From contig SVNA01000017.1 of assembly GCA_015067145.1 (NCBI GenBank), positions 1 to 37,111 on the forward strand: a DNA stretch of 37,111 nucleotides, given 5' to 3'. Origin of the DNA: Oscillospiraceae bacterium. GTDB taxonomy: Bacteria > Bacillota > Clostridia > Oscillospirales > Ruminococcaceae. This document shows, one piece after another, positions 24,977 through 30,434 of the stretch (within the stretch, counting starts at the first letter, position 1; the number at the start of each line of letters is the position of its first letter). The notes beneath the pieces were generated by a model, which did not search any database, was not told the origin of the DNA, and worked only from the letters and a program-made list of their open reading frames with translations. A program made the translations under genes and the position numbers.

Positions 24977-25828
24977 TTATTTGTTGATTTCTTTAGGGCG
25001 ATACATAACTTCGTTAATTGTGTATACCGTCATAAATGCATCGGGGTCGGTTTTTGCGATATAGTTCATCAGTTTGAGATATTCGGATTTATCCACAATA
25101 ACGTTGATTTCCTTGTGCATATCTTCAGTATATGCGCCGTATGCGTGGTAAAGTGTTGCACCGCTGTGGAGTTCATGGAGAATAAAATTAAGAATTTCCG
25201 CATTCTTTTTGGACAAGATACATACGCGTTTTTTGATTGTGGAACCAAAGAGGAAACGGTCAAGGAAAATACCGCTTAAATATGTGCCGATAACACTTAT
25301 TACAACGGTTTTAAGGTCATAAACCAATACGGAAGACAGCGCAACTGCCATGCCTGCCATAGCTATTGCACTGCCCAGCTCTATACGCAGGTATTTGTTG
25401 AGCAGTTTGCCCACAATATCAAGGCCGCCTGACGAAGCATTACGGGTAAAGAGCAGTGCCTGACCAACACAGATAAATATTGCATAGGCTATACAGTCGA
25501 TAAACTGGTCACCTGTAAGCGACTGTACATTTGGTACAAGCTTTTCAAAAACACCAAGAGCCACAGGCAGCAATAATGATGTGTACACTGTTTTTGCGCC
25601 AAATTCCCTGCCTATAAAGATAAAACCTATTATCAGCAGAAATACATTCATAATCATTGTAATCTGCGAAACCGTCAGCGGCACAAGATTGCTGAGCACT
25701 ATTGCAAGCCCGGAAATACTGCCCACCGAAAGATTGCTTGGCACCATAAAAAAGTACACCACCGCCGCTATCAGCACTGTAGCAAAGGTGATAACTGCAA
25801 ATTCCCAGATTTTTCCTGCTGTTTTCAT
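24977..25828 (-). CDS. YitT family membrane protein (DUF161/DUF2179), copy 1
   Basis: This is a 283-residue protein. An N-terminal membrane part of about five or six helices (to about residue 200) has the family segments SVGSISGLAIVLSNL and TRNASSGGLDIVGK. A C-terminal soluble DUF2179 domain (about 205-275) contains KKRVCILSK and HELHSGATLYHAYGAY. The transported or sensed molecule is unknown. About two thirds of residues are identical to copy 2 at 25968-26813. Copy 2 has its own terminator, so the two are separate transcription units. Confidence 0.9.
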   Translation of the reverse strand: MKTAGKIWEFAVITFATVLIAAVVYFFMVPSNLSVGSISGLAIVLSNLVPLTVSQITMIMNVFLLIIGFIFIGREFGAKTVYTSLLLPVALGVFEKLVPNVQSLTGDQFIDCIAYAIFICVGQALLFTRNASSGGLDIVGKLLNKYLRIELGSAIAMAGMAVALSSVLVYDLKTVVISVIGTYLSGIFLDRFLFGSTIKKRVCILSKKNAEILNFILHELHSGATLYHAYGAYTEDMHKEINVIVDKSEYLKLMNYIAKTDPDAFMTVYTINEVMYRPKEINK

Positions 25829-25866
25829 AAATCCATCTCCGTTTCACCATGATAATATATATTATT

Positions 25867-25895
25867 ATGATACAATAAATTTTTTTATTTGTTAA
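25867..25895 (-). promoter_or_regulatory. Promoter of YitT copy 1
   Basis: On the minus strand, TTAACA and TATCAT are separated by 17 bases, just after the terminator of copy 2. Confidence 0.6.
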
Positions 25896-25909
25896 TAAAT
25901 TTTAAAAAA

Positions 25910-25954
25910 TAAAAAAATCAGCGCTGTATAACCTGAAATTATACAGTGCTGATT
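25910..25954 (-). terminator. Terminator of YitT copy 2
   Basis: A 16-bp stem (25916-25931 with 25939-25954, one G-T pair) with a 7-base loop is followed on the minus strand by seven Ts. Confidence 0.92.
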
Positions 25955-25967
25955 ATTGTTAAAACTA

Positions 25968-26813
25968 TTATGGCTTTGGTTTTGGCTTGTACATCATCTC
26001 GTTGACCGCATAGATGGTAACAAAGGCATCAGGGTCTGTTTTTGTTACAAAATTGATAAGCTTCATATATTCGGTCTTATCAACTATAGTGTTGATTTCC
26101 ATACGCATTGTATCTGTATATGCTCCGTATGCGTGATACTGTGTTGCACCGCTGTGAAGCTCGTGCAGGATAAACTCCAGAATTTCATCATGCTTTTTGG
26201 AAATTATACATACACGTTTTTTCAAAGTAGAACCAAAAATGAAATGGTCAAGCACTATTCCGCTGAAATATGTGCCGAATACACTGAGTACAACAGTTTT
26301 GGTGTCGTAAACCAATGCAGATGAAAGTGCAACCGCCATACCGGAAAGTCCCATTGCCTTACCCAAATCCATACGGAGGAACTTGTTCATCAGTTTAGCG
26401 ATAATATCAAGGCCGCCGGATGATGCATTGCGTGTGAAAAGCATGGAAAGACCTATGCTTACAACAAGGCAGTAACCGATGCCGTCAAGTGCCTGGTCGC
26501 CTGTAAGGGACTGGTTGTTTGGAAATACAACTTCAAACACCCCGATAACAATCGGCAGCAGGATTGAAGTGTAAACAGTCTTTATGCCAAAATCCTTGCC
26601 TACAAGCAGAAAACTTATTATAAGCAGTGCTACATTCATTATCATTGTAAGCTGGGAGATTGTAAGCGGAACAAGGTTGCTGAGAACGATTGCAAGACCT
26701 GAAATACTGCCGATGGACAGGCGACTTGGAACAAGGAAGAAGAAAACTGCTACGCCGACAATAATGTCTGCTATCGTGATAATTATAAACTCTTTGATTG
26801 CATCTTTTTTCAT
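25968..26813 (-). CDS. YitT family membrane protein (DUF161/DUF2179), copy 2
   Basis: This 281-residue paralogue of the preceding gene has the same architecture: membrane domain with SIGSISGLAIVLSNL and TRNASSGGLDIIAK, then DUF2179 with KKRVCIISK and HELHSGATQYHAYGAY. I place the start at the ATG at 26813, eight bases after GGAGG; the GTG at 26819 is only two bases from that site. It has its own promoter and terminator, so the two copies can be expressed independently. Divergence is mostly in the membrane helices. Confidence 0.9.
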   Translation of the reverse strand: MKKDAIKEFIIITIADIIVGVAVFFFLVPSRLSIGSISGLAIVLSNLVPLTISQLTMIMNVALLIISFLLVGKDFGIKTVYTSILLPIVIGVFEVVFPNNQSLTGDQALDGIGYCLVVSIGLSMLFTRNASSGGLDIIAKLMNKFLRMDLGKAMGLSGMAVALSSALVYDTKTVVLSVFGTYFSGIVLDHFIFGSTLKKRVCIISKKHDEILEFILHELHSGATQYHAYGAYTDTMRMEINTIVDKTEYMKLINFVTKTDPDAFVTIYAVNEMMYKPKPKP

Positions 26814-26844
26814 AAACACGGCCTCCGTGATGGGATATACAATT

Positions 26845-29353: not shown

Positions 29354-29623
29354 CTATGCTGCCACACGGTTTGTGTTGCTGCCTTTAACAACTTTAAGAT
29401 TGCTTCTGCGTGCAGACTGTCTTCTTTCTGCTGCTCTTTTTGCTCTGAGGATATTTTCCACTTTGAAAAAAGAAGCTGTAAGCTGTGCAAAGAACCAGGC
29501 ACCTGCCAGAGCGACAACTGTTGTCAGAGAAAAGCCGCTAATTGCAAAGAGGCAAAAAAGTGTAGCAAATGCTGTGAGAACTGTCAATGTGCTTGCGAGA
29601 TATATTTTATTCTGTCTTGTCAT
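29354..29623 (-). CDS. Small two-helix membrane protein with basic tail, divergent from a LexA-like repressor
   Basis: I do not recognise the family. The 89-residue protein has two hydrophobic helices (about 7-28 and 33-53) and a strongly basic, hydrophilic tail (about 54-86) rich in Arg, Lys, Ser and Asn. The ATG at 29623 has GGTG eight bases upstream; an in-frame start six codons earlier lacks a site. Its promoter (TTGACA-N17-TATTAT) has an operator inside the spacer and another just after the transcription start, so it should be tightly repressed by the neighbouring self-cleaving repressor. The arrangement recalls B. subtilis lexA-yneA, where a small membrane division inhibitor is divergent from lexA, but there is no sequence likeness to YneA and no LysM domain. 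A toxin, division inhibitor or stress protein are all possible. Confidence 0.75.
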   Translation of the reverse strand: MTRQNKIYLASTLTVLTAFATLFCLFAISGFSLTTVVALAGAWFFAQLTASFFKVENILRAKRAAERRQSARRSNLKVVKGSNTNRVAA

Positions 29624-29646
29624 AATAATCACCATCAACAACCATT

Positions 29647-29661
29647 ACAACCATCGGTTGT
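29647..29661. promoter_or_regulatory. ACAAC-N5-GTTGT operator A
   Basis: ACAACCATCGGTTGT is a perfect half-site pair lying just downstream of the transcription start of the small membrane protein gene. An extra half-site, ACAACC, is at 29638-29643. Confidence 0.75.
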
Positions 29662-29673
29662 TCCTTTGATTAA

Positions 29674-29702
29674 ATAATATCACAACCACAGGTTGTTGTC
29701 AA
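29674..29702 (-). promoter_or_regulatory. Consensus promoter of the small membrane protein gene
   Basis: On the minus strand a perfect TTGACA -35 and a TATTAT -10 are separated by 17 bases. Operator B fills the spacer. Confidence 0.8.
29682..29696. promoter_or_regulatory. ACAAC-N5-GTTGT operator B
   Basis: ACAACCACAGGTTGT, a perfect half-site pair, lies between the -35 and -10 of the minus-strand promoter. Confidence 0.78.
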
Positions 29703-29731
29703 CAGCTTTTTTTACATTTTTTGTAAATTTA

Positions 29732-29746
29732 ACTACTTTAAGTTGT
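29732..29746. promoter_or_regulatory. ACAAC-N5-GTTGT operator C
   Basis: ACTACTTTAAGTTGT has one mismatch in the left half-site. It touches the -35 box of the repressor promoter. Confidence 0.65.
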
Positions 29747-29774
29747 TTACAAACCAGATTTTATGTTGTATAAT
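29746..29774 (+). promoter_or_regulatory. Promoter of the LexA-like repressor gene
   Basis: TTTACA and TATAAT are separated by 17 bases. The ATG at 29763 falls inside the spacer and cannot be the start; the ATG at 29808 can. Confidence 0.78.
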
Positions 29775-29786
29775 GTATATAAAATA

Positions 29787-29801
29787 ACAACTACAGGTGG
29801 T
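29787..29801. promoter_or_regulatory. ACAAC-N5-GTTGT operator D
   Basis: ACAACTACAGGTGGT has one mismatch in the right half. It lies just after the transcription start of the repressor and overlaps its ribosome binding site (GGTGGTGG). Confidence 0.65.
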
Positions 29802-29807
29802 GGATTT

Positions 29808-30434
29808 ATGTTCAGCCAGCAGATTAAGGCATTGCGCAAAGAAAATAAGATGAGTCAGGCAGAGCTTGCAAAACAGCTGAAAGTTACCCAGCAGGCCATC
29901 GGCAAATGGGAAACAGGCAAAAGCACGCCTGACAGCGATACATTACAGAAGCTTGCAGAGATTTTCAGAACAAGTGTAGACTTTCTCCTTGGCAGAGAAA
30001 CTGCAGTTTCCCTTGCAAACAGTTTTCCGTTTGAAGTGGAGTATGAAGATGAGGGGTTTGGCATCCCTGTTATCGGTACTGTGCGTGCAGGTTACAACTC
30101 TCTTGCTTATAACGATGATTACGGCGTTGAGTATGCAAATGTGCGAAATCCTGATGAATATTTCTATCTTATCGTAAAAGGCGACAGCATGGAACCTCGC
30201 ATCAAGGACGGCGACCTTGCACTTGTACATAAACAGCCTACCCTCAATGATGGTGACCTTGGTGTTATTGTTTACGGTGATAACGAGGGCACACTGAAAA
30301 AATTCAGCCGCCGCGGCAACACTATTATCCTCTCGCCTTTCAACCCTGACTACGAGCCTAAAATAATCAGTGGTGAAGACCTGAACAATGTTTACATTGC
30401 AGGCAAGGTTGTAGAAACAAAAACAAAATGGTAA
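29808..30434 (+). CDS. LexA/HdiR-like self-cleaving repressor (XRE helix-turn-helix plus S24 peptidase)
   Basis: This 208-residue repressor has an XRE helix-turn-helix (residues 4-62; KMSQAELAKQLKVTQQAIGKWETGK). A C-terminal LexA/UmuD-type S24 domain follows. All autolysis elements are visible: the Ala94-Gly95 cleavage site in GTVRAGYN, catalytic Ser127 in KGDSMEPR, and the general base Lys164 in GTLKKF. Such proteins cleave themselves when RecA filaments form, relieving repression after DNA damage. HdiR of Lactococcus has the same layout. It is divergent from a small membrane protein, with two operators on each promoter, including its own, implying autorepression and joint control. A prophage-type repressor is the alternative, but no phage genes are near. 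Confidence 0.92.
   Translation: MFSQQIKALRKENKMSQAELAKQLKVTQQAIGKWETGKSTPDSDTLQKLAEIFRTSVDFLLGRETAVSLANSFPFEVEYEDEGFGIPVIGTVRAGYNSLAYNDDYGVEYANVRNPDEYFYLIVKGDSMEPRIKDGDLALVHKQPTLNDGDLGVIVYGDNEGTLKKFSRRGNTIILSPFNPDYEPKIISGEDLNNVYIAGKVVETKTKW

Follow-up and report, generated by a model that had tools for sequence, protein, structure and literature searches.

S24 proteins that replace LexA have been described for the Streptococcaceae, the Moraxellaceae, the Bacteroidetes and Francisella, at least in the passages of the papers on which we draw here. In S. thermophilus, HdiR controls the cinA-recA and umuC loci, and the authors who studied the Bacteroidetes repressors found no relatives of that type outside the Bacteroidetes (passages of PMC8565304). 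Some of the effectors of the damage response are small membrane proteins, and for one of these, SosA, turnover by CtpA has been proposed (passages of PMC6851548).

The locus considered here lies in a stretch of 37,111 nucleotides from an Oscillospiraceae bacterium, which is referred to throughout as the window. An earlier note, made from the letters alone, had described a self-cleaving LexA-like repressor facing a small basic membrane protein across a shared control region. The gene pair, its operators, their conservation and their genomic places could be followed through 16 genomes of the window's genus, in which no LexA DNA-binding domain was detectable, and we propose from the sequences, with a probability of about 0.8, that in this genus the repressor has replaced LexA as master regulator of the SOS response. 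A literature search, with most subscription journals outside it, yielded among the matches listed no report of the clade or of its SOS box.

The repressor

The repressor matches HTH_3 (E=3e-18) and Peptidase_S24 (E=1.4e-25) of Pfam, while the winged helix-turn-helix (HTH) domain of LexA (PF01726) is absent from its 15 Pfam matches up to E=1. It scores 72.7 bits against the NCBIfam lexA equivalog, below the cut-off of 110.95, and only residues 81-202, the S24 part, are aligned. An orthologue is present in 16/16 congeners and residues Ala94-Gly95, Ser127 and Lys164 are invariant in all of these, so that the self-cleavage apparatus described in the earlier note is complete (Table 1). In one congener a contig edge holds part of a further copy of the main repressor, 77% identical (L049, G008:C50:1-447).

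The stretch VTQQAIGKWE at the recognition helix aligns with TTQQSIEQLE of phage 434 CI, and TQQA is kept in every congener. Gln28 and Gln29 of the 434 protein read ACAA. The passages of PMC3317979 do not state a contact of Gln with ACAA.

Operators and promoters

Four operators of the form ACAAC-N5-GTTGT, two per promoter, separate the two genes, and they were found with both promoters where the earlier note had placed them, two being perfect and two carrying one mismatch. Most of the 17 bp spacer of the partner promoter is filled by operator 2. Among the 16 congeneric genomes, the half-sites (10 bases) of operators 1 to 4 are conserved at 98.8, 100, 99.4 and 97.5%, the last value possibly owing something to an RBS-like AGGTGG (29795-29800) which operator 4 overlaps, whereas the 98 intergenic columns that belong to neither an operator nor a promoter box stand at 67.9%. 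The 5-bp cores of the operators are 58-89% conserved in the same genomes.

Table 1. Coordinates of the repressor, its divergent partner and their control region in the window
Feature	Position	Strand	Remark
Partner, 89 aa, two-helix, basic tail, C-terminal Ala-Ala	29354..29623	-	proposed SOS effector
Operator 1, ACAACCATCGGTTGT, perfect	29647..29661	.	downstream of partner -10
Partner -10 TATTAT	29674..29679	-	promoter reading
Operator 2, ACAACCACAGGTTGT, perfect	29682..29696	.	inside partner promoter spacer
Partner -35 TTGACA	29697..29702	-	promoter reading
Operator 3, ACTACTTTAAGTTGT, one mismatch	29732..29746	.	one base common with repressor -35
Repressor -35 TTTACA	29746..29751	+	promoter reading
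Degenerate spacer site CAGATTTTATGTTGT	29755..29769	.	in repressor promoter spacer
Repressor -10 TATAAT	29769..29774	+	promoter reading
Operator 4, ACAACTACAGGTGGT, one mismatch	29787..29801	.	downstream of repressor -10
Repressor, Cro/C1-type HTH + S24, 208 aa	29808..30434	+	proposed LexA substitute
Ala94-Gly95 cleavage bond codons	30087..30092	+	alignment of orthologues
Catalytic Ser127 codon	30186..30188	+	alignment of orthologues
Catalytic Lys164 codon	30297..30299	+	alignment of orthologues

The partner-side operators are spaced 35 or 36 bp apart in 15/16 congeners. The sixteenth, G013, is the most divergent congener and its control region is rearranged, with several sites, one of them a perfect operator in the repressor's own promoter spacer at the place of the degenerate site of the window; at that place G002 has a site with one mismatch. 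Conservation of the gene pair, the operators and their spacing, which the earlier note had proposed to check in relatives, was thereby borne out.

The divergent membrane partner

The two hydrophobic helices and the basic tail reported earlier for the 89-residue partner were seen again, and AlphaFold places helices at residues 3-29 and 33-82, at a mean pLDDT of only 68; the partner models as a group, with means of 67-68, are of low confidence. A small divergent ORF with hydrophobic helices occurs in 16/16 congeners, nine of them recognised by sequence relationship to the window's partner and the rest by position, with a single helix seen by the script in one. Outgroups contribute a further 19 partners, 15 identified by script at 22 loci and four read by eye, and by script no such partner was found at 7/38 repressor loci, all of them in outgroups. 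The placing of a small membrane protein under paired operators opposite the repressor, as the earlier note had it, is thus a conserved arrangement.

All 35 identified partners end in AA or VA, although with close relatives among them they do not represent 35 independent events; an [AV]A end was found in 4 of the 536 ORFs, called mechanically and 200 amino acids or longer, that served as controls. Under the ssrA rule, a C-terminal AA or VA is a signal for ClpXP. The loop between the helices is free of Lys and Arg in 32 of 33 partners, which carry on average 10.6 such residues after helix 2 and 2.1 at the N-terminus, and from this distribution the positive-inside rule predicts an N-in/C-in topology. 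Their tails span 27-52 residues and have a net charge of +5 or more in 29/33, the other four lying below +5 and one of these being negative.

Mean column identity in the partner alignment (A3) is 30%, and as far as sequence can tell the architecture is kept while the sequence drifts. Profiles of the genus and outgroup partners match with a probability of 93% (E=3e-7), which, both profiles being dominated by helices, is suggestive of homology. Comparison with Pfam, NCBIfam and PHROGs yielded no convincing family for the partner, and matches to SepX/GlpR, YmgF, MG406, holins and others (E=0.0015-0.8) were rejected as noise of membrane composition. A pattern scan of genome contigs found no relatives of the window's partner, a result attributable to a limit of the method since the later repressor scan reached records of the same genus.

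We infer that the partner is a damage-induced membrane checkpoint protein which is removed by a ClpXP-like protease. YneA/SosA-type genes sit next to lexA. That the partner acts as a brake on division or the envelope has, in our judgement, roughly even odds; it may also be harmful when expressed, with which the degron-like C-terminus would fit. If the repressor is indeed the SOS master, the partner could instead be a depolarising toxin of the TisB kind or a persistence factor, and the small hydrophobic hairpin, the tight double control and an architecture maintained through sequence drift all speak for this. TisB, however, is a single short peptide, unlike a protein with two helices and a long tail, and we consider a toxin or persistence factor a possible but rather unlikely identity.

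Distribution of the operator in the genus

Sites were counted with a refined motif, ACAACYNNNRGTTGT, and with the same pattern reversed as a control. It occurs six times in the host genome (83% complete), compared with none for the control, and 102 times in the 16 congeneric genomes, compared with one. Looser patterns are not enriched, either in the host genome with up to one mismatch (57 versus 81 for the reversed control) or in the window with up to two (18 versus 21.8 expected), and lone degenerate sites are therefore meaningless without conservation. Among one-mismatch host sites with Y/R flanks, only one of eight stretches (L291) looked plausible, the site lying 41 bp before a frame that we take to encode a RecD-like helicase, and it is not claimed here.

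Thirty of the 102 congener sites are at the repressor locus and 72 elsewhere, 60 of the latter being upstream of six gene groups whose family names derive from one or two representatives each. An operator precedes recA in 16/16 congeners, a positive outcome for the search that the earlier note had suggested, and it is found at a TIGR03916 radical-SAM/YbaK-like pair in 15/16, before a second S24 repressor in 11/16, before radA in 8/16, before a YpsA-family gene in 5/16 and before Y-family polymerases in 4/16 (five sites). Each of the host's six perfect sites fits ACAACYNNNRGTTGT; two are in the window and the others are located 35 bp before recA, 32 bp before radA, between the radical-SAM and YbaK-like genes and before the second S24 repressor. 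The remaining 12 of the 72 sites have no adjoining SOS-like gene; two of them are inside coding sequence, two lie beyond a TPR-like gene, past its end, and a glyoxalase-family gene and a lipoprotein-like frame each have one site nearby. None of the 12 is claimed here.

The TIGR03916 and YbaK-like genes flank one operator-bearing intergenic region in 15/16 congeners, and the former (L114 673-1980, minus strand) matches the family "putative DNA modification/repair radical SAM protein" with 645 bits; an operator at this gene fits a role of the family in repair. In G007 and G010 the YpsA-family gene is divergent from a gene which we take to be dihydrofolate-reductase-like, and one operator is situated between them (L099, L071). 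Raised ypsA expression inhibits division in B. subtilis (passages of PMC7376506), and consequently a second division-related gene may be present in the regulon.

The common operator at recA and repair genes that defines a SOS master repressor by function is, on this reading of the sequences, found in the window's genus, and it is difficult to reconcile with the "stand-alone switch" and "only dedicated output" of the earlier note, given that the same operator recurs at recA, the TIGR03916 pair, the second S24 gene, radA, the YpsA-family gene and the Y-family polymerases.

Repressor loci outside the genus

Scanning genomes with an alignment of the repressor gave 42 loci, extending down to remote matches. 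They include Anaerotruncus colihominis DSM 17241, A. massiliensis, Anaerofilum and Ruthenibacterium, together with Fournierella, Pygmaiobacter and two records labelled Faecalibacterium, and some of the near relatives come from ruminant guts. A recA gene was found in 28/30 outgroup genomes searched, with a perfect upstream site at 12 loci, one mismatch at one and no site at 14, two of which are the same sequence, while L233 stands outside these classes. In 29 repressor-bearing outgroups without strong LexA the refined motif is moderately above its reversed control (45 versus 17 sites), in 20 LexA-bearing genomes the counts are 4 versus 15, and among 14 named outgroup genomes a looser pattern shows no excess (27 versus 43). 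From these recA sites and motif counts, the link to recA extends past the genus, but it is for the window's genus only that the sequences show a broad regulon. In one outgroup (G040), the script found neither operators nor a partner directly adjoining the repressor; a transposase-like gene, read by eye, separates the repressor from the nearest operator, which is about 1.7 kb away (L274 2611-3819).

A more restricted interpretation, in which control by the repressor stops at its own gene and the partner and other sites arise by chance, also finds some ground in the outgroups. In Anaerotruncus and Anaerofilum operators are present at the locus, none was seen upstream of recA in the stretches examined even when one mismatch was allowed, and counts over whole genomes show no excess of the perfect motif, individual examination having covered at most a minority of its other sites there. 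Moreover, FddR of Francisella provides a known small network of this sort (passages of PMC13148647). Against this, the excess of the motif over its control in the genus, the recA site in every congener and the perfect sites at 12/28 outgroup recA loci make such a restricted role quite improbable.

Presence and absence of LexA

The LexA DNA-binding domain (LexA_DNA_bind, PF01726) was found in 0/16 congeners. Positive controls were recovered in 10/14 cases, E. coli and B. subtilis included, but archaea matched too, and weak matches to the domain were for this reason regarded as noise.

A survey of 197 genomes, a sample of the larger group, was used to examine the family as a whole. At a repressor cut-off of E≤1e-79, which was picked after seeing the table, none of 26 genomes had LexA at E≤1e-6, compared with 114/171 of the others (Fisher p=1.2e-11, a value that overstates the case because the genomes are related). 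At E≤1e-70 there were three with LexA at E≤1e-6 among 34 genomes, and at E≤1e-45 there were 8/40, rising to 18/40 when LexA matches at E≤1e-3 were admitted. The mutual exclusion of repressor and LexA is thus weaker at looser cut-offs, and across the family it constitutes a strong trend, uncorrected for kinship. Neither repressor nor LexA (cut-off 1e-6) was found in 51-57 of the 197 genomes, which implies that loss, or poor detection, of LexA is not tied to this repressor alone. The LexA scans covered genomes other than the named outgroups, A. colihominis among the latter, and of the 29 "LexA-less" repressor-bearing outgroups 10 have weak LexA matches, at least three of them over Pfam's cut-off.

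Origin of the locus and other S24 repressors

A CI-like HTH could betray a domesticated repressor of a prophage or mobile element, with a holin-like lysis protein or toxin as its partner and the damage response run by other means. The best PHROG for the repressor is a phage transcriptional repressor (E=6.8e-49), one outgroup partner has a weak Pfam holin match (E=0.0015) and the window's partner a PHROG holin match at E=0.59, and by synteny the neighbours of the window recur at only 7/16 congeneric and 0/14 outgroup loci. These neighbours are, however, ordinary chromosomal genes, and prophage origin was rejected as the main reading on this ground; in short flanks a Na/H exchanger lies beside the pair at 7/16 loci and a dCMP deaminase at 5/16, the repressor is present in all 16 congeners, and all 838 matched phage records are below 60% identity, the best being 57% and the next best 40%. 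We therefore regard a prophage or mobile-element role as very unlikely. The best phage record (MT839076.1; L282, 309-2370) is an unverified faecal "bacteriophage" scaffold in which the 57% identical repressor is followed by the same radical-SAM gene, and it is probably a fragment of a bacterial chromosome. Elsewhere in the window (24977-26819) there is a tandem pair of adjoining YitT/DUF2179 membrane genes.

Least probable of all is that another regulator reads the sites, for example the second S24 repressor, whose gene has a site upstream in 11/16 genomes, since its recognition-helix region varies between clades (SKATVQRW, STSTVAMW) while the operator is constant and TQQA of the main repressor invariant, and since G003 and G010 (85% and 78% complete) keep the recA site with no second S24 match at E≤1e-20.

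The operator-bearing second S24 repressor (L116 1382-2657, G000:C26) has counterparts in 10 other congeners and is mostly divergent from a RinA/MPN403-like gene (weak NCBIfam matches); it may be a switch of a mobile element, induced by damage and itself subordinate to the main repressor. A third S24 repressor of the host lies near an integrase-like frame, read by eye (L017 1501-2136), and likely belongs to a mobile element.

A proposed SOS circuit

The repressor would act as SOS master in the window's genus, with a smaller reach in those related genera that yielded no strong LexA match. It appears to be built from a CI-type HTH resembling that of phage 434, fused to an S24 self-cleavage domain, and we infer that its dimer binds ACAACYNNNRGTTGT in its own promoter and in that of the partner, and also upstream of recA, radA, the TIGR03916 gene and, in some species, Y-family polymerases. 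On DNA damage, the RecA filament would trigger cleavage at Ala94-Gly95 and the target genes would be induced. Among these, the partner would be the dedicated SOS effector, a putative N-in/C-in helical hairpin with a cytoplasmic, mostly basic tail, and its likeliest job may be that of a temporary brake on division or the envelope. Its Ala-Ala or Val-Ala end would function as an ssrA-like signal for a ClpXP-type protease, through which the partner would disappear once repression returns.

A wider evolutionary reading, which we regard as evenly balanced between acceptance and doubt, is that LexA was lost from a lineage of gut Clostridia, whose SOS response was rebuilt on a captured repressor of the 434 type. 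The founding unit would have been the repressor and a fast-evolving effector, to which recA was added widely, and within the window's genus the regulon would have grown to take in radA, the TIGR03916 enzyme, Y-family polymerases and a YpsA-like protein. The effector would then represent a new class of SOS checkpoint protein, a hairpin that faces the cytoplasm and carries its own ClpXP degron, in contrast to the extracytoplasmic type of YneA and SosA.

If correct, this adds a further case of an S24 protein substituting for LexA, in common gut Clostridia. The graded series of pair alone, pair with recA, and broad regulon bears on how SOS networks are rebuilt, and three sets of unexplained genes, the TIGR03916 radical-SAM family, the YpsA family and the membrane partner, would be tied to DNA damage. 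It also carries predictions for the response of these gut bacteria to quinolones and mitomycin.

Comparison with known systems

The partner resembles YneA, SosA and their kin in being a small, putatively SOS-induced membrane protein that would need proteolytic removal, but those proteins commonly have one membrane segment and a predicted extracellular C-terminus (passages of PMC6851548), whereas the partner has, in models of low confidence, two helices, with a predicted C-in orientation and an AA/VA end.

Phage 434 CI shares with the repressor a TQQ opening the recognition helix and half-sites of ACAA/TTGT. In the record of the phage protein the operators are annotated as ACAA-N6-TTGT or close variants of it and measure 14 bp, whereas those described here measure 15 bp and are extended to ACAAC/GTTGT, and no lysogeny genes are found beside the present repressor. 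Francisella FddR is likewise a captured phage repressor regulating itself and a conserved divergent gene, but its operator is GTG-N11-CAC and recA is not induced (passages of PMC13148647), whereas in the present case sites stand at recA and at repair genes.

With HdiR of Lactococcus and Streptococcus, the repressor has in common an S24 LexA-like constitution in a LexA-less group of Firmicutes; the combination of a Cro/C1 HTH and S24 in a LexA-less host, which characterises the HdiR type, is present here. HdiR differs in clustering with streptococcal phage repressors and in its minimal regulon, the two being set side by side from its description (passages of PMC8565304). Canonical LexA has the same Ala-Gly bond and Ser/Lys dyad, but its winged-HTH domain is absent here.

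Close in overall plan is the non-canonical LexA of the Bacteroidetes, which also joins a CI-like HTH to S24 and, in a group without LexA, directs a SOS regulon that takes in recA and repair genes (passages of PMC8565304). The word "membrane" is absent from the main text of that paper, and to that extent no membrane partner has been described for it. The Bacteroidetes operators are GGA-N5-TCC or CTAA-N5-TTAG (passages of PMC8565304), whereas the operator conserved in the window's genus is ACAACYNNNRGTTGT.
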